Assembly: GCA_020055645.1 (NCBI GenBank)
Contig: CM034546.1
Coordinates: 16,182,001 to 16,246,000 of the forward strand
Direction: 5' to 3'
DNA from: Tomocerus qinae
Lineage: Eukaryota; Arthropoda; Collembola; Entomobryomorpha; Tomoceridae
DNA: 64,000 nucleotides
Shown here: one piece after another, positions 4,764 to 64,000 of the stretch
Numbering within the stretch: position 1 is the stretch's first letter
Layout of the letters: every line of letters starts with the position of its first letter
The notes under the pieces: generated by a model
Databases searched by the model: none
The model's input: the letters and a program-made list of their open reading frames with translations, nothing else
What the model was told of the DNA's origin: nothing
Translations under genes and position numbers: made by a program

Positions 4764-6773
4764 CTAACAACATTTATATTTCCTGAAAACCATTTCGAAA
4801 ATTAGAATAAACATTGCAAATACAGACCCACATAGCAAAATAATAAAAGGTAAAATAATGTTACTATATAAATGTATTGGTCTGGTTGGACTTGGATATA
4901 CAAATTCATCATTGTGTGAATTAGACCTGTTGAAGAAATAGCTTTTATAATGTTTTTGTAATTCTTTCATCTTTTCTTGAGATTTCCGTCTTTCCCACAA
5001 ATAATAAACTCCAGTTTCAATAATCCAATCCATTCTTCTAAAAACTAAAGGCGATACCACAAATACCAATCTCAGGTCAGATCGTTCCGAAAACAAGTTT
5101 TCCATTCCTTTCGTCCACTTGTTACTTCTCTTTTGCTTGTGCGGATGTGCCCAAACTATGCGATCTAATTTGCTGGATAAATCGAGAAAAACTGACCGAT
5201 CACAATTTTCCACGGCTTCTTCAGGAATTATATTTTGTTCATTGATTGAAACGTTGCTGATGAAATTATTGTATATAAAATTAAAAATTGATAATCTTTT
5301 TCTTTCCAAAACGTTACCAGAAATGGATTGTTGGATTGAATAGTTTAATTCTGCTTTTATGGAAAACAAACGTTGTAGTGCCAACTTACTACTGTTTTTG
5401 CTGCCGTTGAGGTAAAAATTAAGATAAAATTCGTTGATTGAACTAAAAATACTTAAATTTAGCGACGAGACTTGCTCAAGCGTTTGTAGTTCATATTGTG
5501 GAAGTGGAGCAGTTATCTGAGATGTATTTGATCCTTTGTATGACGCTGTTATCAACATACAATAAAACAACCAACAGGGTATAATAATTTTCACTGAATA
5601 CCGACCTCTTTTGATTTTAAGCAATGGCATAGTGGTTTCCAATAGATAAGCTAAAAAATAAAACGGATTTTGGTTGTAGTTGCCATTTATGTTGCATTTC
5701 GACTGTAAGAAATTGAATATGATTACTAAACCCAAAATTAATCCGATTCCAATCCACAAATAATTATCTAATGGAAGAAATATTGTAGAAACTGATAAAA
5801 ATTTCTTCCCTTGATAACAGGTAATAAAATTATAACTGTGTGTATCAACTACAAAATCTTTTCCAGGATACTGATCGAAGTGTTTCACCGACGCAATGAC
5901 TAGGTTTGGTTTAACTCGGTACGTGCTACCTACGTTGGCGTCATTTGTTAAGGTGACATTTTTGAAATCGGTCATCAATGTTTTCCCCAAGAGCAAAAAT
6001 TTGGTAAAATACTTTTGATTTTTGACATTTTCATTCAGGTTGTCTAATGCAATCCCCTCAATTTCCGGTTCATTTGTTAATAAAACATTTCCACCGACAA
6101 ATGCTGGCATGTTATTTCCAGAAAGTGTTTCAAAAGATTTGTAAAATTCCAATATTCGAGAAATTGTTAATGTCTCCAAAATAGGCACAAATATAATTTT
6201 TCCAAAATTACAAGCCCAGCAAATTATTTCAGTTTTACGAGTTTGACCATTAAGTGAATATATTATCGTTTTGGGATATAAAAGTGAAATTGCGGTAATC
6301 GATTGCAAAGTTAATTTTATGGCATATAGATCTGGCATTGAAATAACGTTTACAAATGAATAAGTAAAATCTTGTGAAGAGTTACCAAGTTTGAAATTAA
6401 AATCTGTTTGAAAAGTAACAAACGCCGAACTTTTATAGTGAACATCATAAAAATCTTCGAAGTAAAAATAAGCCAAACAAATTCGGTGTCTACTCAATAA
6501 TAATTTTTTCTTATACACTGGAAGGTTATGAGTTATGTATTCTGTCGTTGTAATGACCGTTGGATGTAGAGGAGCCACTATTGACAATTTTTCCCACAGA
6601 AGTATGTAAATGTGACACTTTGAAAACGGTTCGATATATAAATTGACGTCAATATCATCACGTTTTTCTTTTGAAGTCACCTCTAATTCACCATTTAAGC
6701 TAATTATAACTGAAATTTTTATTACTACAAATGTGGAAACGAAATATTTGTAATAATCACACATTTCTGACAA
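4764..6773 (-). CDS. Divergent ionotropic-receptor-like protein, copy 2
   Basis: An intronless ORF of 669 residues, clearly paralogous to copies 1 and 3 over its full length. It has the same order: hydrophobic N-terminus, long extracellular part with conserved Cys residues (for example CWACNFG), TM1 around residue 345-365, pore-loop-like NPFYFLAYLLETTMPLL, TM2 with FYCMLITASYKGSNTSQIT, second extracellular part with the IPEEAVENC motif, TM3 near the C-terminus and a short basic and Cys-rich tail (RKYKCC). It lies in tandem with copy 1, same strand, about 2.1 kb apart, and the upstream regions are also duplicated, so the unit of duplication was gene plus flank. Two in-frame Met codons (residues 1 and 4) begin it; the second matches the start of copy 1. 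The ligand is unknown. Confidence 0.75.
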   Translation of the reverse strand: MSEMCDYYKYFVSTFVVIKISVIISLNGELEVTSKEKRDDIDVNLYIEPFSKCHIYILLWEKLSIVAPLHPTVITTTEYITHNLPVYKKKLLLSRHRICLAYFYFEDFYDVHYKSSAFVTFQTDFNFKLGNSSQDFTYSFVNVISMPDLYAIKLTLQSITAISLLYPKTIIYSLNGQTRKTEIICWACNFGKIIFVPILETLTISRILEFYKSFETLSGNNMPAFVGGNVLLTNEPEIEGIALDNLNENVKNQKYFTKFLLLGKTLMTDFKNVTLTNDANVGSTYRVKPNLVIASVKHFDQYPGKDFVVDTHSYNFITCYQGKKFLSVSTIFLPLDNYLWIGIGLILGLVIIFNFLQSKCNINGNYNQNPFYFLAYLLETTMPLLKIKRGRYSVKIIIPCWLFYCMLITASYKGSNTSQITAPLPQYELQTLEQVSSLNLSIFSSINEFYLNFYLNGSKNSSKLALQRLFSIKAELNYSIQQSISGNVLERKRLSIFNFIYNNFISNVSINEQNIIPEEAVENCDRSVFLDLSSKLDRIVWAHPHKQKRSNKWTKGMENLFSERSDLRLVFVVSPLVFRRMDWIIETGVYYLWERRKSQEKMKELQKHYKSYFFNRSNSHNDEFVYPSPTRPIHLYSNIILPFIILLCGSVFAMFILIFEMVFRKYKCC

Positions 6774-8680
6774 TTTTTTTGCACATTAACTATATATTAA
6801 GAGACTGTCGTTTTTATTGTCTTAAGATGCGTACCTAGATTAATATTTTCACTGTTCACTATTTAATTTGTCTAACGGAGTTCTCGTTGAATTCTGAATG
6901 AATGTAAGTGTTGAATACAATAGGCTTCGTATTTCATTCTTTTTCCATTACGATAATGGTTGGTGTGTGCTGATAATGTGTTTTCTCCTCCTTTCACTGC
7001 CGCACACAATTATATTTATTAATATTGTAATTTTTAATTTACATGGAAAGGCTTAGTAAATTGCTACTCAAACAAGGCTTGACCTTTGATCAATAAATAT
7101 AATCAGAAAGATTATTTCTGGTTATAACCGCATTGTTGAAACTTAAACGTATTGAGGACATCCATTTGTCAATATAAAGGCTAATGGAATTACTCAAGGT
7201 GGTTGAGTGCAATCTTATCAAAACTTGACTTGGTGGATTTGCGTAACCTACAAAAATTGTGATGGTTAGGAAATATTCATATAAGTTGAGTTTCATGGCT
7301 TTGAATTGTTATCGATGACAGTTTCTATTTCTAAAATGATTTTCTGAATTGTTAAGCATCTGATACTTTACTTTCACCATTTATAGCTATAAGTGCTATT
7401 AATTCAATTACCTCTCTTATTAAGTGCTCTCCTCTAAAGTCGTTGACAATTAAGTAGAGGTATGACTAGCTTTAAAATATAGATTTTGTCGCTCAGGAAC
7501 GTATCGAGAAATTTGGAAGACATTTTCGCGTGACATAGACATCTTTTTGACTAACATTAAATTAAATACATACAACGAAGTTGAATAGGTTATTTTGGCA
7601 TGATTCCTTACATTCTTAATATGTTTCAAGATATTAGGTTTCCTCTGGCAATTATCCAGCGTTTTTGTAAATATTGAAGAAAGGATGGGTTAATCTCAAT
7701 TGATTTTTAAAACATTATTTAAACAAGCCTCATATCAAGGTTAATGTCCAATGACACTTGAAATTTCATAGTTATTAACCAAGAAGAAACTAAAGCAGAG
7801 TAAATTAATATTAAAGATTTAATTTCTGTATATTTGGGCATTTATTTATACTTCGCTAAGGAAAATGGTTTAACAAATCTTATTAATTTAGAAATCCATT
7901 TTTATTGTATACTCTAGTAGTACCAATGCCAGACTAAAGATATCCAAATCAAAACATAATCTTGCCAATGTTGAAAATATTGTAAAAATTTTCTGAAAAA
8001 CTTAAGATTGCATGAAAAGAAGTTTCAAAAACATTTTGGTGAATGAGAACTCTAACTTTATATTATATTTGAAAATTGGATTGAGGTTTGTATTTTAAGA
8101 GATTGTGAAATCGTGAAATGGCTGATGGATGTTGAATGTGCACTTTCATAAGGTTTTGCTTGTATAGTTTAGGATTAAAAAAACGGAATGATTGAATATT
8201 ACAGGATCAGAATTTTAATATTTTCAATTCATTTAATAAATTCACTGCTTCAAATTCAATTCTCAATCTCGTCTACATCCATCCCCCACAGAATCTTTCC
8301 CAACGTCAAACACCTCTTCAACACGAAGCACGAATCTTCATCTCAGTTCTCTTCATTTTCTGGATTCTATAAGAATACCAATATATTCCTTCATAAGTGT
8401 CTGCTGACATAGTTGCCGGATGGCGACTACTTGGCTACATTCCATTAAGGTTGACCTAGAATCATTTATTCAATTTTGTTATCGAATTATCCAAATGTTT
8501 TTATTATCTCTCAAAAACAATATTTTTTGAAAGGTTTTCGTTATTTGGGTTAGAAGTGAGGATGACTCTTCAATAGGAAATCATTGCAGTACTTCCATAA
8601 TTTATTTAATTTTTCCATTTTAAGTATTTAAATTAAATAATTATTTTAAATTACTTCAATTGATGTAATTAATATACATT
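6774..8680. other. Duplicated flank upstream of IR-like copy 2
   Basis: About 6830-7310 matches the flank of copy 1. The more distal 7850-8670 matches 26780-27490 (shared 'ctcttcaacacgaagc', 'tggcgactacttgg', 'ttccattaaggttgacct'). No gene is supported here; small ORFs at 7090 and 8188 look accidental. Confidence 0.55.
7120..7129. promoter_or_regulatory. Conserved palindrome GGTTATAACC upstream of IR-like copy 2
   Basis: Same block as at 3044 and 39438, here 347 bp from the start codon of copy 2. Function is inferred from conservation only. Confidence 0.35.
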
Positions 8681-36133: not shown

Positions 36134-38110
36134 CTATAACTTGGAACATATTTTGAAAACAATTTCAAAAATTAGAGTAAACAATGCAAATACAGACCCA
36201 CATAGCAAAAAAATAAAAGGTAAAATTATATTACTGTATAAATTTATTGGCTTGCTGAGATTTGAAGACACAAAATCATCATTGTGTGAATAAGATCTAT
36301 TGATGAAGTAAGTTTTGTAACTTTTTCGTAATTCGTCCATCTTTTCTTTAGATTTCCGTTTTTCCCACAAATAATAAACTCCACTTTCAATAATTGAATC
36401 CATTCTTCTAAAAACTAATGGCGATGCTACAAATACCAATCTCAAAACAGAGCGCTCCGAAAATAAGTTTTCCATTCCTTTCGTCCACTTGTTGTTTCTT
36501 TTCTGCTTGTGTGGTTGTGCCCAGACAATGCGATCTAATTTGCTGGATAAATCCAGAAAAACTGACCTATCACAATTTTCCACTGCTTCTTCAGGAATTA
36601 TATTTTGTTCATTGATTGAAACGTTACTGACGAAGTTATTGAACGTGAAATTAAAAGTTGATAATCTTCTCCTTTCCCAAAAGTCACCAGAAATGGGTTG
36701 TTGAATAGAATAATTTAATTCCGTTTTTATGGAAAACAAGCGTGGGAATGCCAGTTCGCTACTGTTTTTGCTGCCATTGAGATAAAAATTAAGATAAAAT
36801 TCGTTGATGGAACTGAAAATACTTAAATTTAGCGACGAGACTTGCTCAAGCGTTTGTAGTTCATATTGCTGAAGAGGAGCAGTTATCTGTGAGGTATTTG
36901 ATCCTTTGTATGACGCTGTTATCAACATACAATAAAACAACCAGCATGGTATGACGATTTTGATTGAAAAACGACTTCTTGTGGTTTCAAGCAATGGCAT
37001 AGTGTTTTCTAAAAAATAAGCAATGAAATAAAAGGGATTTTGGTTATAGTTGCCATTTATGTTGCATTTCGACTGTAAGAAATGGAATATGATTATTAAA
37101 ACCAAAATTAATCCGATTCCAAACCACATATAATTATCTAAAGGAAGAAATATTGCAGTAACTAATATAAATCTCTTCCCCTGATGACAGGTAATAAAAT
37201 TATAACTGTGTGTATCAACTACAAAGTCTTTTCCAGAATGCTGACCAAATTCTTTCACCGACGCTATCATCAGATTTGGTTTAACACCGTACGTCCTACC
37301 TACATTGGCATCATTTGTTAAGGAGACATTCTTGAAATCTGCCATTAATGTTTTCCCCAAAAGTAAAAATGTTGTAAAATACTTTTGATTGTTAACATTT
37401 TCTTTCAAATTTTCTAATTCAATGCCTTCAATTTCCGGTTTGTTGGTCAATAAAACATTTCCACCGACAAATGCTGGCATGTTATTTCCAGAAAGTTTTT
37501 CAAAAGATTTGTAAAAATCCAATATTCGAGAAATAGTCAATGTTTCCATAATAGGCACAAATACGATTTTTCCAAAGTCACAAGCCCAGCAAATTATTTC
37601 AACTTGACCAGTAAGTGAATACATTAATAATTTTGGATAGTACATGGAAATTGTGGTAGATTTCTGTAGCATTGATTTCATATAACTGAAATTTGTAAAT
37701 GAAATAAGGTTTATATATGAATGACTAAAATCTGGTGTAAAATTTCCATGTTTGAAACTAACATCTACATAAAAATTGCTAAAACCTAAATAGATACTTC
37801 GATCATCAAAATCTTCAAAGTAAAAGTAAGCCAAACAAATTCGGTGTTTGCTCAATATTAAACTTTTCTTAAACGTAGGAGGGTTATCAGTCATGTATTC
37901 TGTCGTTGTAATAACCGTTGGATGTAGAGGAGGCACAATTGACAATTTTTCACACAGATGTATGTAAATATGACACTTTGAAAACGGTTCGATATATAAA
38001 TTGACGTCAATATCATCAGGATAATGCTGTTTGTTTGCATTTGTAATATTTGTAACCCAAATAATTGTCAATGTCCACATGTAATCGAAACATCGGTAGT
38101 AACCGCACAT
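36134..38110 (-). CDS. Divergent ionotropic-receptor-like protein, copy 3
   Basis: An intronless ORF of 658 residues, paralogous end to end to the copies at 648 and 4764, about 29 kb away. Same layout: hydrophobic N-terminus, Cys-containing extracellular part (CWACDFGK), TM1 (about residue 335-355), pore-like NPFYFIAYFLENTMPLL, TM2 with FYCMLITASYKGSNTSQIT, second lobe with IPEEAVENC, TM3 close to the end and a short KICSKL tail. Divergence among the three is concentrated in the N-terminal third and the tail, while TM2 and the post-TM2 motif are identical. This fits maintained function with changing ligand specificity (inference). The immediate 5' flank is of a different type from copies 1 and 2; the palindrome block lies 1.3 kb upstream. 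Confidence 0.75.
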   Translation of the reverse strand: MCGYYRCFDYMWTLTIIWVTNITNANKQHYPDDIDVNLYIEPFSKCHIYIHLCEKLSIVPPLHPTVITTTEYMTDNPPTFKKSLILSKHRICLAYFYFEDFDDRSIYLGFSNFYVDVSFKHGNFTPDFSHSYINLISFTNFSYMKSMLQKSTTISMYYPKLLMYSLTGQVEIICWACDFGKIVFVPIMETLTISRILDFYKSFEKLSGNNMPAFVGGNVLLTNKPEIEGIELENLKENVNNQKYFTTFLLLGKTLMADFKNVSLTNDANVGRTYGVKPNLMIASVKEFGQHSGKDFVVDTHSYNFITCHQGKRFILVTAIFLPLDNYMWFGIGLILVLIIIFHFLQSKCNINGNYNQNPFYFIAYFLENTMPLLETTRSRFSIKIVIPCWLFYCMLITASYKGSNTSQITAPLQQYELQTLEQVSSLNLSIFSSINEFYLNFYLNGSKNSSELAFPRLFSIKTELNYSIQQPISGDFWERRRLSTFNFTFNNFVSNVSINEQNIIPEEAVENCDRSVFLDLSSKLDRIVWAQPHKQKRNNKWTKGMENLFSERSVLRLVFVASPLVFRRMDSIIESGVYYLWEKRKSKEKMDELRKSYKTYFINRSYSHNDDFVSSNLSKPINLYSNIILPFIFLLCGSVFALFTLIFEIVFKICSKL

Positions 38111-39660
38111 TTCTGTCGAATTATATGTTACACGGCTATTATTTGTTGAAAACTTTGTCTTCTAACATTACATAAGGTTATCTTAGATGTACTTATATTG
38201 AAATCTTATTCGTGGACAAAATTTTCAAAACTTTAACAATAGTCCTGCTGAGTAATAATTAAATTTAAATAAGTATACTGTCGCTTGTATATTTTTTGTA
38301 TCTAGTTACAATAAAACCAGTTAGTTGGTTACATCCACGAAAAAATAAATACTGAAAATGCAGCAGTTTTCATAATACGTCCTTCTACATTTGACAATAT
38401 TCTGCGCTATGTCGGCTCAGTGTGCATTTAAGTGCTGCTATAAAATGAATTCTCTTTTCATTGCTTTGTAGCACTTAAAACGTTTACACATGTACACGGG
38501 GACCATTAATAAAATCACTCAACTAATGCTTGACTTTTTATAAAAGGATTAAAAAGATAAGCATTTATGACAATTGGATAAGTGCAGTTTTGTCAAAGTT
38601 AGAGCTGTCACTTAATTGTGCATAAAGATTCTGATCTAACATAAATGGCAATGAATGAGAAATTATTATCGTAAGTAGCTTTACTTAAGTTTTTAATAAT
38701 TAATGATGAAATTTTTCTGTTTGGAAAGATACTTCAATTATCTCCATTTTTCAATGTTTTGCTTTCATCATTCTTATAATAAGGTTTTAATTTAGTAAAC
38801 TATTAGAAGCTTTGAGTTTTGAATAAATATATATGCATACATTATAGATATTAATTTATAGAAATACTTCAGATAATTTTGGTTTTGAACGCAATACCCG
38901 GTTATTGGTGCACATGAATATTTTATAATTAAAACCAGGTGCATATAATTATTTTACGTAATTTATTTTAATTCTATGGCATGTAGCTACAAGCTAGAAA
39001 ATTATTGAAGGTGGAGAAATGTAAATAATGTCATTTAAAAAATTAAAATAAAATTTTGAAAAGTTCAATAATTATAATGTCTATAGAAATCTTATAATTG
39101 TGCCAAGAATACTAATGGTTCCTAGTGGATGTGTAATTAACACAATCATTAATAACACAGGGAATCCGATAAAAAATGCTAGAGAATATAAATATTTGTT
39201 TGGTGAAATGGAATCAATTATTATAAGGAATAAGGTACATATTGTATTAGATCAATTTTTTTATTACATACTGGTTGATGTGTTGTGTGTGCTTTTAATT
39301 ATTTTCTTTCTCCTTTTACTACAATTACAACACAATTATATTTACACATAATATATTTTTAATCTACGTGGAAAGGTTTTGTAAAATGTTGCTCAATAAA
39401 GTTTTGATAAATAAACATAATCAGAGGAGTTATTTCTGGTTATAACCGCATTATTATAACTTAATCGCAATAAGTACATCCAATCTTCAATTTAATGGAT
39501 TAATTCAAGGCGGTTAAGTGCCATATTGTCAAAATTTATATTTCCGCCACTTGTTAGATTTGTATCTATCAATAATATTGGAGGGAAAATTATCATATAA
39601 TATGATAACAGTTTCTATATTTGCAGAATTCTTTCAATAGTTCAGTAGTATTAATTCACA
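38111..39660. other. Upstream flank of IR-like copy 3
   Basis: 38120-38400 and 38974-39080 match the orphan flank at 25965-26520. 39260-39620 matches the flanks of copies 1 and 2. No gene; the 83-codon ORF at 39100 is not recognisable. Confidence 0.55.
39438..39447. promoter_or_regulatory. Conserved palindrome GGTTATAACC upstream of IR-like copy 3
   Basis: Same block as at 3044 and 7120; here 1328 bp from the start codon. Function is inferred only. Confidence 0.3.
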
Positions 39661-49424: not shown

Positions 49425-49880
49425 AGCCGACTATAAGCCGACGGAATATAAATTAATTTTTATTCTTTTACTACTGACCGACAAAATGGAAAATTATTTG
49501 CTATTGTCGACTGTAAGCCGACAATATTCAAACTAAATTTTATCATTGACTATAAGACGACAGAATTCAATTTAATTTATACCATCGACTATAAGTCGCC
49601 GGAATGCAGATTAAATTGTTATCATCGGCTATTAGCCGAAATAAAACAAATTAATCTGTAAGCATCGACTATAAGCTGTGGGAATTAATTTTAAATTGTA
49701 ATTATCGACTATAAGCCGACGGAATGCATACCAAATTGTAATCATCGACTATAAACTGACAGAATGCATATTAAATTGTAATCATCGATTATAACCCGTC
49801 AGAATGCAACGTAATTTGTTATTGTCGACAGTCGACTATAAGCCGACGGAAACCTAAATTAATTGTTATCGACGACTATA
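49425..49880. repeat. 40-bp tandem array, about 11 diverged units
   Basis: The unit is about 40 bp with a core ATCGACTATAAGCCGACGGA followed by an AT-rich spacer. Units diverge strongly, so the array is old. It directly adjoins the 34-bp array. Confidence 0.85.
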
Positions 49881-49899
49881 CGCTGAACATTAGAATGTA

Positions 49900-50335
49900 T
49901 CTCGGTGTGGTACAATTGTACCACATTGGATATTGCCATGTTAGCAAGAGTAGGGCTTTAACCATTGGTTTGGGGACAAGTATAAAAACACGAGACCTTG
50001 TGAGGTACAATAGTACCACACTTGGATACTGCTGCGTGGTACAATTGTACCACACTTGGATACTGCTGCGTGGTACAATTGTACCACTTTTGGATACTGC
50101 TGCGTGGTACAATTGTACCACACTTGGATACTGCTGCGTGGTACAATTGTACCACACTTGGTTACTGCTGCGTGGTACAATTGTACCACATTTGGATACT
50201 GCTGCGTGGTACAATTGTACCACACTTGAATACTGCTGCGTGGTACAATTGTACCACACTTGGATACTGCTGCGTGGTACAATTGTACCACACTTGAATA
50301 CTGGTGTGTGGTACAATTATAATACACTTGGTAGT
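49900..50335. repeat. 34-bp tandem array built on palindrome GGTACAATTGTACC
   Basis: An isolated unit at about 49908, then about ten uniform units from 50002 at an exact 34-bp period. Each unit carries the 16-bp palindrome TGGTACAATTGTACCA and the spacer cacttggatactgctgcg. The palindrome is preserved even where spacers vary. Long ORFs exist in several frames on both strands only because the unit lacks stop codons; they are not genes. Confidence 0.92.
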
Positions 50336-52450: not shown

Positions 52451-52999
52451 AAAATTAATTTTTTGACGAAAGAGTGCAAGTTTGAGTCAAAACAATTAAT
52501 TTTTTTGTACTTCAGGAAGGCTATGTACAAGAATACCTCCAAAATCGTAACATAAAATAGCTCCGAAACTACTGAACCGATTTGTAAGAAACTTGGACCA
52601 AGATATCATTTACCATATATCGGGGACAATTTTTGAATTTGTAAAAAAAATTCGCATTTCTTTCCTTTCAAAATTACGAAATAAATTTTGGAAATAGGCG
52701 GTTTTTCATCCAAGGAATTTTTTTTCAAAATTCTAAATGGATTAAAAATTAAAAGTCCTTTACAAATTGTAGTTAATGAGCGGAAATTGATTTTCAAAAT
52801 TATTGACCTCTACGAGATGTCAGAGGTTAATCTTCGTCGAAAAATGCCCACGTAAAAAGGTGTCGTTTGCAAGCTAAAGTTATGGTAAAGGCCAAATAAT
52901 TACATATTTTTGGCAAACCGAGTACTTCATAAAAAGGTCAAAGGTCAATGTTTGTCAAAAATTGGAATCTCTGATGTACATGCTATGCCACAGTAAAAC
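52451..52999. other. Gene-free, repeat-like
   Basis: Wording such as 'ctccgaaactactgaaccga' and 'ggtcaaaggtcaat' suggests degraded interspersed repeat, with echoes in the first 600 bp of the window. Confidence 0.4.
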
Positions 53000-53490
53000 T
53001 GTTAATAAAAAAGTATAACTTTTAAAATAACTTTTAAAGAAAAATGTATATTTTTTAATATAACTTTTAAAGAAAAAGTATAACTTTTAAAATAACTTTT
53101 AAAGAAAAAGTATAACTTTTAAAATAACTTTTAAAAGAAAAAGTATATAACTTTTAAAATAACTTTTAAAAGAAAAAGTATAACTTTTAAAGAAAAAGTA
53201 TAACTTTTAAAATAACTATTAAAGAAAAAGTATAACTTTTTTAAAATAACTTTTAAAGAAAAAGTATAACTTTTTAAAAATAACTTTTAAAAGAAAAAGT
53301 ATAACTTTTAAAGAAAAAGTATAACTTTTAAAATAACTATTAAAGAAAAAGTATAACTTTTAAAAATAACTTTTAAAGAAAAAGTATAACTTTAAAAATA
53401 ACTTTTAAACAAAAAGTATAACTTTTAAAATATTTTTTAAAGAAAAAAGTATAACTTTTAAAATAACTTTTAAAGAAAAAGTATAACTTT
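53000..53490. repeat. AT-rich minisatellite, unit about 35 bp with variants
   Basis: Repeated AGAAAAAGTATAACTTTTAA and AATAACTTTTAA in about 13 units with length variants. AAAAGT/ACTTTT parts make short palindromes. Confidence 0.88.
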
Positions 53491-54117
53491 TGAAAAAAAT
53501 AAATAATTCTTCATTTGCCTGACAGACAGTTGAAAGGGAAGAATTATTACTAAAATTATTGAAAATAAATGAATTAACAATTACTGGAACAAGATGAGAA
53601 TGAGTAATTGAGTATCGGCTACTAGTTAGCAACAGTTATCAATTCTATTCTAATGCTCTTAAGAAAAGAAGGAAAGCCCGGTCGTCTTCTTGTCCCGGTA
53701 GTATATATTAGTATATATATGTAGTTGAGATTAAGCATTTTTGTGTATTTTAAGTAATCACAATATGCACATTATGTTTTAAAATTATTGAGGTGATTAA
53801 ATAGGCATTTTATTTGGTCAACTCCATTTACCTACGTTATGCAAGATTAGTTAGCCATAGATGTCAGCGTATGTATACCTTACAATTTTCTACTTATCAT
53901 GACGTTGTAACTGATTTATTAATGAAACGTCATTCTATGATACAGATTAAACCACTTTGAGATGCAATAGTAGTGAGAATTAACATTAACAGAAAACATT
54001 TGTAGGAAGTTATTAATAAGGACGCTTGAATAGTTGTATTGCAAAAATGTCTATGTGTGTACTCAAAATTAATGAATACTTTAAACCAAAATAAAAACTA
54101 AAACTGAAGTGTACTAT
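53491..54117. other. Gene-free stretch
   Basis: The 75-codon minus-strand ORF at 53405-53632 runs partly through the minisatellite and is not supported. Confidence 0.4.
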
Positions 54118-55700: not shown

Positions 55701-58700
55701 ATGTCCTTCTCGAAATGGACCGACATGTTTCGTTTAAAGAGACACCCCCGTGACCGAGAGCCTCAGCAGAGCTCAAATTCAGAGGAAGTAGAAGTGGAAG
55801 AAACAATTTTACCACCTTTAGCAGATAAACTAAAAGAGGATAACGATCTTAAACTAAGCTGTGAAACATTTAGCCAAGCTGTTAAAAAAATATTAGAAGA
55901 ACACAAAGAAAAATACCAATCGAATTGGGATAGTCCTACCATTCCTAACACATATATATTTCCCACCCCGAGGGATTTTGCAAACTTTTCTTATCTGGTT
56001 TATAATGATTATAAACGGAATGAATCAGAAGAAGAATATGAACGACGATTAAAATTGCCCAATGGGTGGAAACTGTTAACAACTGCTGTTAATTCGACAA
56101 ATATTAACAGTTATTTTGGAGTAGCATATTGGCACCCTGAATGAACGGCTACAAGTAGTGATTTCTCATCGGGGAACACAGCCAACAACTCTAGGTGTTG
56201 ACTGGTTTCAGTGGAAGGGTGTCATCTATAACAATTTCATTCCCCATATGAATTCTGCCAGCACTTTTGCGGATAAAGTTATCGAAGCACTAGCTGATTT
56301 GGAAGAAAAATTTGGGGTCTATTTTGAATTATTTTTTACTGGCTACTCAATGGGAGGATGGTTGGCTCAAATTACTACATTTACAACGAGTTATTTAAAA
56401 ATACTGGATCACAATTTCATCAAGCACACCAGTAACAAAAAACAGTATCATGCACACACAGTCGTTTTTGATTCTCCAGGCTGCAAAGAAATGCTCCTGA
56501 AGATAGAAGATAAATTCGATGTTCGTCTTGAAGGCCACTCTATAGTCATAAGCAGTTTAGATATCACAAGTTACCTTATGGCCCCTAACAGGATAAATAC
56601 CCATAATACGCATTTAGGTACAGTATATCGATTATTTATTCCTAACCTACCGGAGCCCGTAGAAAAATATAAGGAGAAGGTGATAATGAAAAAGATTTTG
56701 GAAACGTTCGACCCCGGCCAATCTGGTAGTGAAGATTATGGACAATTAAAACTTCAAACTGTTGTGGATTGGCCTCGCAGCGATGGGCTGCTTATTGGCA
56801 AAGAATTCAAAGCATTTTTTGAATGGGCAGAGCATTTTAAAAATTGTTTTCCTGAAACAACAGATGCTTTATTTAAACAGGAAGCCCACCAAGGTTATTA
56901 TCCCATCCGATATCAAACAAAAATATTTGAGCCAAATAAGATCAGCTTGAATGTTTTTACAACAACGGAGAAGCAATTCTTGGAAAACTACCAATGGCTG
57001 CGGCAGTTAAACTTGTCAGATTTCTATGACATTTTTGGTGTTAAACGGACAATTGATGAAGTTAAAATTCAAACAAGCGAAAACCTAGCTAATTTTATTG
57101 TTGAAAACGATACAATTCAGAGTTCTTCTGCAAAAGCGTTACAGAAGATAATTCCTTACATAAAACATTTAGTAAAGTTTTGCTCTGTTGGAAGACAGGA
57201 AAAGAAATCTATAACTGAAGTAGCTGCATCAAAAAAACTTTACTACAAAAATAACTACTCAATATATAGCAGACTTGGAAAAGGAGGTTTTAGATTTTAA
57301 TGGTAACTTGGCGTATTTTGAAGAGTTTTTCGTAAGCAGTAATCAAATTTGGCACTTGAGACTCCAATCTGGAGATGCATGGATTGGAATGAAACTGGTA
57401 TACAAGACATTTCAAAAATGCAGGAAAACTTTGCACGATGCTAAAAAATATACTGCTCTGCCTTTAAAGCGTTTGTTGGAAATGGAGGAACTTCTTCGTT
57501 TCAAATTGATTTTGTCGACCAATGATGACCCACATTTGTTGATGATAGAATGCAACAAAGAATCTTTCCTTGAGTCAAAGGCAACAGAAAATTTCTTCAT
57601 GTCATTGTTTCCAGCATTGCAAAGAAACCTGCGTCTGAAAATAATAATAGTGACACAACAAATCAAGCAACTCTCTGATTTTTTGCACCAAAATGCGACT
57701 AAAATTCTAGGACATAACAAATATATTACTACTGATATCAATAGCCTGTCTTGGAATGATTTAACATCGCCGTCACAAATAAATTTACTAAAGACACCTG
57801 TAGTATTTCAAGGAGAGCATGTGTTTCTAAATGAAATTATTCCTGATGATCACCACGATTTTCTTGAAAAGATTCCCCCATTAACATTGATTCAGAATAA
57901 CCCTTTGGTTATTGCAAATGAAATATCAACATCTACTGGGTATGAAGTATTTTTGTACATAAATAGATACTTTGATCTTCGGGTAACTCTAAAATCAGAC
58001 ATAAAAATGGATAAAGAACATGGAATTTTCCAGGACCATTTAGCATATACAGACAAAGAGTTTAATGACTTATGCGAAAAAAATCCTAGAGAAAACGTAC
58101 ATTATTTGTCGTCATCAAACGACCTGATTTGGAAAAAGTCTCGTGGCAGTTTATCGGCCCTGCGTCCCTATCTTGATATAAAACAAAATCAACAGAAAAC
58201 AGAAATTGACTTAATTGAAAATATAAATGATCGAATAATTATCATTTCCGGACCACCTGGCATAGGAAAGACTACATTATTAGACAATATGTCTAAACAG
58301 ATAAAAGAAAAATGGAAAAATAATTGGGTTGTCAGATTGAATCTGAATGATTACACTGCCCAATTTAAAGAAAAAAGTTTATCTTTTTTTAACAGTGGAT
58401 CCATGGATTCCCTAACCTCATTTATTTCAAAAGATTTATTACGGCTGAACAGTGCGTTGGAGAAAGACATTTTTTATCTTCTACTCCAAAAAACGGGAAA
58501 ACTTTGTATTTTATTTGACGGATTCGACGAAATTAGCCCCGATCACACTGAAAAGGTTATTGCACTTGTCAAAAACCTCAAGAAATCTGCAGTATCTAAT
58601 ATGTGGATTACAACCCGTTCCCATATGCGAGAGATTTTAGAAAAAGAGCTTCAGCAATTTTCTTATACATTAAGACCTTTTTCTGAAGGTAATCAAACCC

Positions 58701-61700
58701 TGTTGTTGACCAGAATTTGGATTAAGGAGTTAAAGTTGTCACTCCATTCCCATACAAAAATCGATAAATTGGTCACCTATTCTGAATCTGTAATACAAGA
58801 AGTACTGTTATCGATTAACGATGACGAAAAAACCTTGACTGGTAATCCGCTTCAAATTAGAATGTTAGCGGATATTTTTCGACCTCAAGCACAAAAATTA
58901 TTGGATGATAAAGATTTCGTCCCTGCACTGCCCCAAAAATTTTCCCTACAACAATTGTACAATAAATTCGTAGGAATTAAAATTGAAATTTTTGCCAGAC
59001 AGAAAGTAATTCTTCCAGTTGGAAACCCGGGAGCAGAAAGAATTCTTGACCGCGAAATTGTAAGACTTAATCAGGAACACAAAATATTTTCATTGAAAGT
59101 ACTTTTTAATGAGGAACAGTTAAGGGTTCTACAACCACCATCCGACTCAGAATTAATCGACACAGAAGAGTTAGCTAGAATTGGGATAGTGCAAAAGATG
59201 TCTAATAAAATTGAATTTATACATCGCACTTTTGCGGAATATTTTGCAGCTGATATACTTATGACGTTACTATTCCACATTAGTAAGCCTTTGAAAGAAA
59301 AATCGGCGTTTTTATGGAAAGTGATACTTGTTGAACAAGATTACGAAACCCTAAGGATATTCCTTAATTCCCGTTTAGAACATTTTCCAGTGGAAACTAA
59401 TGCAAAAACTTTGTACGGTGAGCTTATATCGGAATTATGGTCAGAAAAGGAATTATATTCACAAAGAAGTGATACTTCGTTACATATAGCCTACCGAAGT
59501 GATTTGATGCACATAAGAGCTTTCATCTTTTCCAGCTTAGAAAATTCACTGAAACCACTTAAAGATTTATTGTTTTTCAAAAACAAGACTGGGCAAATTC
59601 CTTTGCACTGTGTTACCAATTATAATAATCCAAATATTATAATTGAATTGCTTAATTATGTTAAAAAAGTGTTTGATGTTGAAATGTTACAAAAGATAAT
59701 TTTAGAAAAAAATGCAGAAGGAAGAAATATTCTACACTTGACTATGCAGCGTTATACTTTTGAGTCCATCCAAACATTGTGGGACCACATCAACTCAATT
59801 GTTGATATCAAAATTGCGAAGAAAATCATTTTTGAAAAAGATAAGAAAGGCAATTCCCCACTAACATCTGCGCTGTGGTCATATCATTGTGAACCAAAAT
59901 TATGGAGTTATTTTAAATGTTTATTTGATGCGGAAACTGTTAGAGAATTAGTTTTTGAAAAAGATGCTCAAGGAAGAAATGCCATTCATTGGGCAGCCGG
60001 GGAACAAATAGATGACAACGGAAAGCTTTTAAAAGCAATAATGGACTATATCAAAGACACATTTGACATTGAAACGGCATTGTACATCGTTTCTGCATTA
60101 GATAATAAAGTAAATAACCCACTTGACACAGCAATGAGCGCTTATAAAAAATCAGCGACAGCAATTGCGATATTGGATTACATGAAACCACAATTTGGCA
60201 TCGAGGCCGTTAAAAGAATGATTTTTGAAAAAGATGTAGAAGGTAGGACGCCATTGCACTTAGCACTTTTGAAAAAGAACCAAGCATCCGGCTTACTGTG
60301 GACGTATATAAAAGATAACTTAAATGTGGAATCTTTAAAAGAGGTAATTTCTGAAAAAGATTTTAAGGGAAATACTGTTCTTAATCTAGCTGTGGCCATT
60401 AATAATTCATTAATTGTAAAGGAGATAATACAATTGTTCAAAAGCATATCGGATGTCGAATTCTTGTGGCAAATTGCCATTGAAAGGAATGAGGAAGGAA
60501 ATAGTTTTTTTCACTTGGGGTTAAGAAATGACAATTCTGATATTATAATACTTGTAATGGAACTGTTGGAATTCATGAAAGTACGTTTGGATATCACAAA
60601 AATGCACACGATACTTTATCAAAAAAACAACGAAGGAAACACCATTTTGCATCTATCAATGAAATGCCACAATGAAGTACCTGTAGTTTTACAGTTTAAA
60701 TGCAATCTAACTGATGAATTTGACATTAAAATGCAACAGAAGATAATATTTGCAAAAACGAAAGAAGGACAAAATGCCCTACATCTCGCAGTAGAAAATA
60801 AAAAGTTCACCTCAGCAATACAGTTACTGGATTTTGTTAAAAAACAATTTGGAATACCATTTGTAAAACAAATGATCACAGAGAAGAATGACAACGGAAC
60901 AAACTCGTTTCACTCTATACTTAATTGTAAAGAGCCTGAAATATTATTGAGCTACATGAAAAATAACTTTGATGTAGAAACTTTGAATGAGATTACCTAT
61001 CAGAAAGATAAGGACGGGGTTAACCTATTGCAAATGGCTATGTCAAACCAACTAATATGGAAACATATTAAAAATAGCGCTGATGCGTTAATTGTAAAGA
61101 GAATGGCATTTGAAAAGGATAAATATGGAAGAAATGCTCTTCATTTTGCAATGGAAAATGATAATTTTGCTTTGGCCAGGAAAGTATTGGAGTATATTAA
61201 AGAAAAGTTTGATGTCGAAACCGTTTGGAAAATCATCACTGAAAAGAACAATGATGAGGGTATATCGCTTTACAATATCCATTCTGTCCTAACAAAGCAA
61301 CAAAATCCAACTCTGGGTCTCTTGGTGTATATATCAACAACAACTTTTCTAAAGAGTATTTGGAAGAAATGGTTGCTAAGAATGAAATTTTTATAGCTTT
61401 TTGACTTGGAAAAAATCAGAGTCTTCAATGGCGATTTGGGCATTCATTAAAAACAACATTGAGGTTGAAACAATCAGAAATATGCTTTTGATGCCTGACG
61501 ATGTATACGGAAATCCTGTACGATGTGCCTTGGCTAAAAAAAATTTGAAGCTAGCTATGGATATCATAGATTACAGTATCGAAAAATTTGGTAAAAATTT
61601 TGCGAAGAAATTTATTTTGGAAAAAACTAATCAGGGGTCAACAATTTTGCAAACAGCATTGGATACCTATTACACCAAAGAAGATAGTAATTCCATAATG

Positions 61701-64000
61701 GAATTTTGGAACTATCTCAACGCTAGATTTGATTCCGAAGTAATTAGTGGACTTATACTTGAGAAAGACGAACAAGAAAGCAATATATTGCTTTGCTTGA
61801 TGATGCAAAAATTTAGAGAGGCATTTGTTAATGAATTATTGATTTATATTAAAAAAAACTTTGATGTAATGACGTTGAGGGATCTGTGTTTTGAGAAAAA
61901 TGAAAATGAAATCAATGTTATAACATTGGCAATTGAGCAAAACAATACAGCATTTGTAACTGATATATTAGACTACGCTAATGAGACGAAAACAGTAAAG
62001 GCTTTATTTTTTGAAGAAGGTAATGGCGAAAGAAATCTTTTCCATTTATATGTGAAGAATGGCACCCTTTCATCTGTATTGAAACTGCTGAAGTATATCA
62101 AGGATGATCTTAAAATCGAAATTAAAGAAACTTATCTGGGAGTTGATCAAAATGGAAAAAATTTACTCCATTTGGCCGTACAAAGAGAATTCATTTTTGT
62201 TGAAGGAATACTTGATTTAATTAAATGTGACTTTGAAGACAAGATCATTTTTGAAATGATGTTTCAAAAAGACTATAAAGGGAATTATCCAATACACATG
62301 ACCAGAAGTTCAAACCATGCGATTGAGTTATTGCAATATATTGGCACCAATTTTGGTTTTGAATTTACAAGACAATTGGTTACTGAGAAAAGTTCCACTG
62401 GCAATTTTCTTTTCCAATTTTTAGTTCTAAAAGATGGTCTGCATTCTGTTAAAGAGATATTTGAATTCATAAAGTCTAATATCGGAATAGAGACTCTTAT
62501 AGAAATGATCGCTGATAAAACCAGTGACGGGAGTAACATGCTGCACCTGGCAGTAAGACTAGGAGGTCCTAACACAGGTAGGAACAATATTAGCTGGAAG
62601 GCAACAAAAGGGTTTTTCAACTTTGCTAAACATAATTTTGGCGTTAAACACTTGAGCAATCTAATCATTGAGAAAACTAATAGCGGCAGTAATGTTCTTC
62701 ATATAGCTGCACAAAACAAATGGAAATTGGAGGGACTATTTCAATTTATTTTACTGAATTTTGGTAAAACCACATTAGAAATGATACTTTTCCAGAAAGA
62801 CAACAAAGGTTGCACTCCTTTTCATTTAGCAGTTAACTCTAAGCCAGGATTTGGATTGATAACTCTAATTTCAAAACATTTTGACACGGAAGCGATAAAG
62901 AAAATGTTTCAAACAACAGACAGCGATGGAAGAAATCTTGTACTAAGAATGATGCATAAGCACATCAAGTCAGTGAAATGGTTATGGACTTTCATTACTG
63001 ATAATTTTGATGCTGAACTTAGAAAAGATATTTTCTTTCCAGAAAATGGAGGCTGTCAAACTCCTCGTCATCGTCCAGTTAAGAATAGTACTGGATTAGA
63101 AGAACTCTTGAAAGACTTTTTTGGTTATGTACCAGACATAGAGGAAAAAGACATAGAAGCCAATGTGTTACACATTGCAATACAAGGACGAAATTGGATG
63201 TCTGCTAATATTATATTGGATAAGGTAAAAGAGAGCTTTGGAATTGAATACGTAAAAATAATGATATTTCAAAAAACATTCGATGGGAAAAATGCTTTGC
63301 ATTGGGCAATGATGGCCAGAGAGAATACTTCAGCCACAAAATTTTTAGACTATATTAACACCCATTTTGGAATTGAAATTTCAGCACAAATTATTTGTGA
63401 CAAAGATAAAAATGGCCAAAACTCATTACATTATGGGTTGCGCTATATGACGTCAGCTTCCGAGTTTTTAGAATACATCAAAATTGCTTTTGGTATTGAA
63501 TTTTTGGAGCAAATCCTTTGCGACAAGGACATTGATGGAAGTAGCATTCTACAATATGCTTTGCCATATCGGAAGTTGGTTGAAGATATTTTTGAATTCA
63601 TTAAATTGCATTTAGGAACCAAATTTTTAGAAAAAATTATTTTCGAGAAGGACAATAACGAACGTAATATTCTACATAGTTCGTTGCTTCTGAATATTGC
63701 AACTGCTAATTTATTACTGGATTATATTAAAATCCGTTTTGGTAGCAAGATTTTAGAAAAACTTGTTTGTGAAAAAACCACGAATGGAAGTAACTCTCTA
63801 CACTTTGCACTGGAAAATTTAAAAATAGATTCCATTATAAAATATTTAGATTGTATTAAAATACTCCTTGACTACGATTGTTTTAAACATATGGTTAATG
63901 ACCAGGACAGTAATGGAAGAAATTTCGTTCACATTGCATCAATGACGGATCAATTGGAAGCCGTTTTGAACGTACTGAACCATATGAAAAACAATTTTGA
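55701..64000 (+). CDS. NLR-like protein: class-3 lipase, NACHT ATPase, ankyrin repeats; frameshifted, 3' end off window
   Basis: The start is ATG 55701 (context gcaaaaATG). Lipase part: VVISHRGTQ at about 56157 and GYSMGG at 56341-56358 with the nucleophile Ser of the GxSxG motif, then VVFDSPGC, a likely catalytic Asp. NACHT part: Walker A GPPGIGKTT at 58250-58276, Walker B LFDGFDE at about 58511-58531, WITTRSH sensor-like motif, and FIHRTFAEYFAAD, the helical end typical of NACHT proteins. From about 59580 to the window end come ankyrin-type repeats. By family, this is a STAND ATPase in which ankyrins sense, NACHT oligomerises and the lipase would act on membrane lipid; that role is inference. 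Four shifts break the frame: near 56135 (CCC), 57231-57237 (A7), 61332 (TATATA) and 61396-61401 (T run). All are at simple runs between long intact frames, so fresh pseudogenisation or assembly error are both possible. Confidence 0.8.
59580..64000 (+). repeat. Array of at least 33 ankyrin-type repeats, about 40 residues each
   Basis: The unit is longer than the usual 33 residues. Its consensus runs: helix YIKxxFDVET, then VKKIIFEKD, xxGRNALHLA and a second helix ending in LLD. The GxNxLHxA core is the ankyrin signature; the FDVETVKKIIxEKD part is a conserved extension. About 14 units lie before the frameshift at 61332 and about 19 after it, still continuing at the window end. DNA copies are well diverged, so this is an old protein repeat rather than a young satellite. 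Confidence 0.85.

Follow-up and report, generated by a model that had tools for sequence, protein, structure and literature searches.

A frame-broken lipase-NACHT-ankyrin gene of the springtail Tomocerus qinae and its relatives in host and bacterial genomes

Organization of the locus

We analyzed a 64,000-nucleotide stretch of the genome of the springtail Tomocerus qinae (hereafter the window; C1:16182001-16246000, where C1 is a 140-Mb contig of the 334-Mb genome in 115 contigs), which carries a gene for a lipase-NACHT-ankyrin protein on its forward strand. The gene runs from 55701 to 1.6 kb beyond the window end and comprises a lipase fold, then a NACHT ATPase, and then approximately 40 ankyrin-type repeats (Table 1). 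An earlier sequence-only reading had proposed this order, with more than 30 repeats on one strand, and it was confirmed, 32 repeats falling inside the window.

In Pfam scans, the NACHT domain (PF05729) scored 49.8 bits against a cut-off of 26.7, and both Walker A and Walker B were present. The Lipase_3 model (PF01764) reached 16.1 bits, below its cut-off of 22, and NB-ARC also missed its cut-off (18.7 vs 23.5 bits). Of the three domains named by the sequence-only reading, Pfam recovered NACHT and ankyrin, and the lipase fell short, as it did in the intact paralogue described below. The ankyrin-type repeats are spaced mostly at 40-47 amino acids, not 33; their ankyrin identity is supported both by profile and by the modelled fold, in which the stretch examined forms an ankyrin solenoid with three helices per unit. 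The matches listed from the Pfam scan included no tetratricopeptide repeats (TPRs) and no leucine-rich repeats (LRRs), the latter among 25 of the 35 matches for piece 3. Death-fold heads (CARD, Pyrin, Death) were not found in the window at E up to 1, where piece 1 matched no family and piece 2 matched Lipase_3 alone. Scans of the window with PADLOC and NCBIfam gave P-loop-level or clearly sub-cut-off matches only, and a PDB sequence search returned no useful relative (best E values, 1.5 and 0.071).

Table 1. Features of the window (L017 is the intact paralogue on the same contig)
Feature	Position	Strand	Remarks
Open-frame piece 1	55701..56141	+	Start codon, leader, and N-terminal part of lipase head; aligns with L017 head
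Frame break 1	56130..56150	+	Short tandem duplication, by comparison with L017
Open-frame piece 2	56134..57297	+	Lipase core and C-terminal part of head
Lipase motifs in piece 2	HRGT 56167-56178; GYSMGG 56341-56358; FDSPG acidic residue codon 56470-56472	+	GYSMGG contains the nucleophile Ser
Frame break 2	57240..57280	+	Close to an A-run, by comparison with L017
Linker and pre-NACHT region	57269..58231	+	Resembles L017; partial likeness to other NACHT proteins of the genome
NACHT ATPase domain	58232..58714	+	Walker A 58250-58276; Walker B 58511-58531
Post-NACHT region including HRTFAEYFAAD	58715..59575	+	L017 similarity covers query residues 3-761 of 764
32 ankyrin-type repeats inside the window	59576..63998	+	Array runs on to ~65.2 kb
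Frame breaks 3 and 4	61320..61405	+	Repeat unit runs through all three frames
Three ionotropic-receptor-like open reading frames	648-2627, 4764-6785, 36134-38161 (-)		659-675 amino acids, uninterrupted
Tandem repeat arrays	49428-50331, 52997-53506

An intact paralogue

Searching the genome with the lipase piece of the window, we recovered six places besides itself with E values no higher than 0.01. The strongest of these (E 3e-108, 50% identity) belongs to an open frame of 1,799 codons at C1:14.05-14.06 Mb (L017), 2.2 Mb from the window locus on the same contig, and the NACHT part of the window matched this same frame at 39% identity. L017 carries Lipase_3 (20.4 bits, just below the cut-off), NACHT (47.8 bits), and Ank_2 (84.4 bits) in a single frame, while the remaining two frames of the stretch contain 152 and 164 stops. 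Neither LRRs nor a death-fold head occurred among the 12 Pfam families matched at E up to 0.1.

Because L017 carries lipase and NACHT in one uninterrupted frame, it is settled at frame level, for this copy, that the two are parts of one predicted protein, as the sequence-only reading had supposed. Separate lipase and NACHT transcripts are thereby ruled out at this level, even though a frame break separates the two parts in the window. Contaminant DNA is likewise ruled out because the locus sits on a 140-Mb contig, although the head itself has counterparts in intracellular bacteria. That the window holds two transcripts or a contaminant locus is therefore very improbable.

Fold and catalytic residues of the lipase head

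The window head was modelled with a class-3 lipase fold, in line with the sequence-only reading; the model is weak overall, with a mean predicted local distance difference test score of 56.8. We aligned 20 heads, six from this genome and 14 from bacteria or archaea. The nucleophile Ser and an acidic residue past strand 6 are present in all 20, and a downstream His in 14. Judged by alignment of residues alone, L017 has the complete Ser-acid-His triad, whereas the window has Ser and the acid and lacks His. An LDI residue considered as the catalytic acid was dropped, since Asp occupies this position in 13/20 heads only. Among the 19 other heads, the His column is empty of His in five (four with another residue, one with a gap in a short row), so catalysis is not required in every family member.

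These absences bear on a rival reading, in which the head is lipase-like but has no catalytic activity and serves as a module for signaling or binding, so that the receptor signals by assembly, not by lipid cleavage. The plant proteins EDS1, PAD4, and SAG101, which act in plant immunity and are not known to have a fused STAND domain, offer a parallel; they share a class-3 lipase-like fold with the window head, a likeness at the level of fold. With Ser and the acid in every aligned head and the full triad in L017, we consider a dead head rather unlikely as a general account.

Integrity of the window copy

The reading frame of the window gene is interrupted approximately four times, with no gap of intron size at these positions. 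At each of three junctions the protein switches frame, the third junction consisting of two breaks, and ordinary introns between the pieces were ruled out because the open frames overlap at all three. In the alignment, the window copy has no His in the stretch where L017 and other readable heads of the genome carry the conserved one. Its end branch in the tree of heads described below is long (0.83, compared with 0.19 for L017), which fits relaxed constraint. The ratio of nonsynonymous to synonymous substitution rates (dN/dS) between the window and L017, estimated by NG86, was 0.16 for the lipase and 0.20 for the NACHT part; dS had reached saturation (2.6), and the YN00 estimate failed. These values would fit long purifying selection followed by recent breakage, or an assembly error.

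Accordingly, the breaks might be assembly errors in a gene that is intact in the animal: by our reading, three of the four fall on short runs or on a dinucleotide repeat, and dN/dS against L017 is low, though with saturated dS. Break 1, however, is a tandem duplication and not a homopolymer, and the same assembly contains long frames: 12 of 30 NACHT places have one of 1,514-2,172 codons, and three lipase loci one of 2,181-2,217. Moreover, such errors cannot account for the absent His or the long end branch, and we regard this explanation as unlikely. On the strength of the frame breaks and the missing His, the window copy is probably a pseudogene, and a recent one, and probably no longer a working receptor.

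Lipase heads and STAND proteins in the genome

Lipase-head loci were counted with two queries, which may have missed more distant heads. Seven were found: the window, L017, L010, L012, L013, L011, and a decayed locus of the L012/L013 class near C1:128.64 Mb (L014), which is left as several fragments with stops. L010, L012, and L013 are intact lipase-headed frames of 2,181, 2,216, and 2,217 codons, respectively, and L011 is a 501-codon frame on contig C5. All four passed the Lipase_3 cut-off of 22, with 24.8, 24.9, 25.5, and 33.9 bits, respectively. NB-ARC exceeded its cut-off (23.5) in L013 (34.3 bits) and L012 (29.9 bits). L013 (C1:72.42 Mb) extends into L035, where a second P-loop region (HVFVIGPTGSGKSTVINFLVGN) gave GTPase-like matches below cut-off; a long charged tail of coiled-coil-like appearance was also observed in L013/L035. 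Between L012 and L013, dN/dS was 0.20-0.24 over 754 codons and 0.15-0.22 in the lipase part, which indicates that these two lipase-headed copies are under purifying selection.

The genome holds at least 30 NACHT places, 17 of which were read as sequence and four of these scanned with Pfam (the window included in both), and at least 126 NB-ARC places, a count from 126 of 253 first-look candidates scored. A 2,172-codon frame at C1:4.61 Mb (L019:679-7194) combines ankyrins and a cysteine protease domain of the OTU family (30.7 bits vs 23.3) with NACHT (27.5 vs 26.7) and, from these matches, is another enzyme-headed NACHT protein. A 1,514-codon NACHT frame at C1:9.20 Mb (L022:3749-8290) shares with it the head stretch YQLKLL.LFL...ATE.D.AEKFDD. 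This shared head may be nuclease-like (Cap4-type), a resemblance that neither PADLOC nor Pfam supported. Separately, a 957-codon NB-ARC frame (42.5 bits, L016:5659-8529) was noted approximately 4 kb past the end of the lipase-NACHT gene.

Bacterial relatives and evidence for horizontal exchange

Alignment A1, which comprises six heads from this genome, served as the query against a collection of bacterial and archaeal genomes; among candidate stretches, 23 loci matched with E values of 1e-3 or lower. The best matches came from Rickettsia endosymbionts of arthropods, a gammaproteobacterial metagenome-assembled genome (MAG), a Rickettsiales MAG, Ca. Amoebophilus, Rickettsia tamurae, and a Legionella MAG. 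Four loci (L036, L038, L041, and L042) each encode, in one frame, a lipase-like head, NB-ARC or a related P-loop domain, and TPRs. NB-ARC was over its cut-off in three of them (27.8, 34.7, and 29.0 bits) and reached 21.9 vs 23.5 in L041. Lipase_3 was over its cut-off in L036 (24.6), L038 (24.4), and L041 (25.8), and L042 instead matched the related Mbeg1-like family (22.1 vs 21.1), among 25 of its 28 matches. L040 has a head below cut-off (21.4 bits) joined to a stretch that matches ankyrin weakly (24.7 vs 27.3); L039 has Lipase_3 alone (24.0), its other matches being sub-cut-off. The small symbiont genome of Ca. Amoebophilus that contains L042 (G004) has eight places with a lipase head, whose frames span 1,526-2,511 codons.

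The seven genomes behind the bacterial loci match by construction. In the order of the Rickettsia endosymbiont of Omalisus (G001), 39 of 174 drawn genomes matched at E up to 1e-6, a count that includes some genomes that supplied alignment rows and several matches broken by stops, and the distribution is therefore patchy. Searched against the phage collection, the NACHT part of the window matched nothing, and the same was true of the L013 protein in the plasmid collection. Two weak lipase matches (E 4e-6 and 8e-6) were obtained among viral contigs.

The tree was built from the six heads of this genome and the 14 best of the 23 bacterial and archaeal loci, the weaker nine (L050-L058) being left out. 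The window and L017 paired at 100/100. L010, L012, and L013 grouped together (100/99) within a group of 12 that includes Rickettsiales and Amoebophilus heads (89/90, not starred), and the C5 head L011 was placed in a group with the heads of Legionella and gammaproteobacteria (99/95). The long branches L047 and L048 joined each other, which the tree program flagged. In approximately unbiased (AU) tests, run once the tree was known, the hypothesis that the genome's six readable heads form a single clade was rejected (p = 0.0005), and the same hypothesis for the five heads without L011 was not (p 0.054). The first result supports at least one exchange of heads between bacteria and this lineage. 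More than one exchange is likely but not secure, and rests mainly on L011, because the other five heads were not rejected as a clade. Since the NACHT part has no phage match and belongs to a host family, the history of the lipase head may differ from that of the NACHT-ankyrin body.

Another reading is that genes for bacterial conflict or host manipulation were captured from intracellular bacteria and retained for a non-immune use. The best outside relatives in Rickettsia, Amoebophilus, Legionella, and gammaproteobacterial records, the placement of L011, and the patchy occurrence in the endosymbiont's order would suit such a capture. The NACHT-ankyrin body, however, lies in a host family without a phage counterpart, the genes sit on large contigs with two copies under purifying selection, and the tree gives no direction of transfer; we find this account improbable. 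On a bolder and still tentative reading, this arthropod lineage and intracellular bacteria may have traded ready-made lipase effector heads more than once, with one head ending up on the lineage's own NACHT-ankyrin receptors and a second on NB-ARC proteins; an enzyme-armed, bacterial-style STAND immune arm would then be at work in an animal.

Proposed function and comparison with known systems

We lean toward reading the window gene as a frame-broken member of a host family of NOD-like receptor (NLR)-like STAND receptors with lipase-NACHT-ankyrin architecture, in which the lipase would serve as the effector. The immune role and the catalysis of the family are what we infer from sequence and models. 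In an intact protein, the ankyrin array would bind a ligand or keep the protein closed; ATP-driven self-assembly of NACHT would then cluster the lipase heads, which could cleave membrane lipids and so cause damage to, or a signal from, the infected cell. As far as the available text shows, a direct effector role has been proposed for lipase-headed fungal NLR-like proteins (PMC4986451), and alpha/beta-hydrolases acting on membrane lipids are among the domains fused to bacterial death-like domains (PMC8195603).

Several observations weigh against this proposal. The copy in the window has frame breaks, confidence in the lipase model is low overall, and some heads lack the His. The two queries placed a lipase head at 2 of the 30 NACHT places, and a scan of 771 codons of the 2,181-codon L010 frame (C1:49.56 Mb) detected no ATPase family; L010 is perhaps a variant that has lost its P-loop. 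For the intracellular immune receptor with an enzymatic head that the sequence-only reading had suggested, the architecture stands through L017, and the window copy itself, frame-broken and without His, probably does not work as one.

In fungi, NLR-like proteins whose heads are of the sesB/alpha-beta-hydrolase or patatin type likewise place a lipase-type enzyme before the nucleotide-binding domain and, as a class, have ankyrin among their C-terminal repeats; their head has been proposed to be the direct effector (PMC4986451), as we propose here. Their heads are sesB-like or patatin whereas ours is class-3 lipase-like, and the two are likened here at the level of architecture; Lipase_3 was the sole family in the Pfam scan of the window head, in which no sesB model was searched by name. 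In the Rickettsia and Ca. Amoebophilus proteins (L036, L038, L041, and L042), the head is homologous (E 2e-24 to 1e-28 among candidate stretches). These proteins also combine a STAND ATPase with C-terminal repeats, although they are bacterial and use NB-ARC and TPRs where the window gene has NACHT and ankyrin. Bona fide animal NLRs have a NACHT core, a variable head, and a repeat tail in common with the window gene; their LRR tail and death-fold head, however, were found in neither the window nor the L017 scans.

Arthropods are commonly described as having no NLRs, or NLRs lacking an effector head, in the portions available of three papers (PMC4986451, PMC7308585, and PMC11508797). The statement of the sequence-only reading that insects lack NLRs is too simple, as homologues of NACHT have been reported across the arthropods and crustaceans, and their exchange with phage WO of Wolbachia has been proposed (PMC5062602, from its accessible text). 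Phage WO has NACHT followed by ankyrin, as in the window gene, but no lipase head is mentioned for the arthropod or WO proteins, the word lipase being absent from that accessible text. The N-NACHT/HEAT architecture of fungi is also found in Rickettsiales, with transfer suggested (PMC12258605). We found no report of a springtail or arthropod lipase-NACHT protein in the openly licensed literature. In the large STAND repertoire of this genome, the NACHT-ankyrin and NB-ARC classes both bear the same enzyme-like head, which intracellular bacteria share; if the intact genes serve defence, they would represent a directly testable animal immune effector traded with symbionts.

Other features of the window and genome

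The three ionotropic-receptor-like frames of the window are mutually similar by eye, and their Lig_chan scores (19.2-20.9 vs 30.8) are below cut-off; fibrinogen-like neighbours scored 49.1 and 53.6 for Fibrinogen_C against a cut-off of 22. The tandem repeat arrays have 40/80-bp and 34-bp units (the latter in 9.6 copies with 93% matches), together with a 32/65-bp AACTTTTAAAG-type array. Across the genome, (TTAGG)n arrays gave 184 forward and 216 reverse overlapping matches (400; control, 0). These arrays and the ionotropic-receptor-like and fibrinogen-like neighbours fit an arthropod genome and are not specific to springtails. Many of the (TTAGG)n stretches are interstitial within contigs, for example at C1:6315544-6315648.

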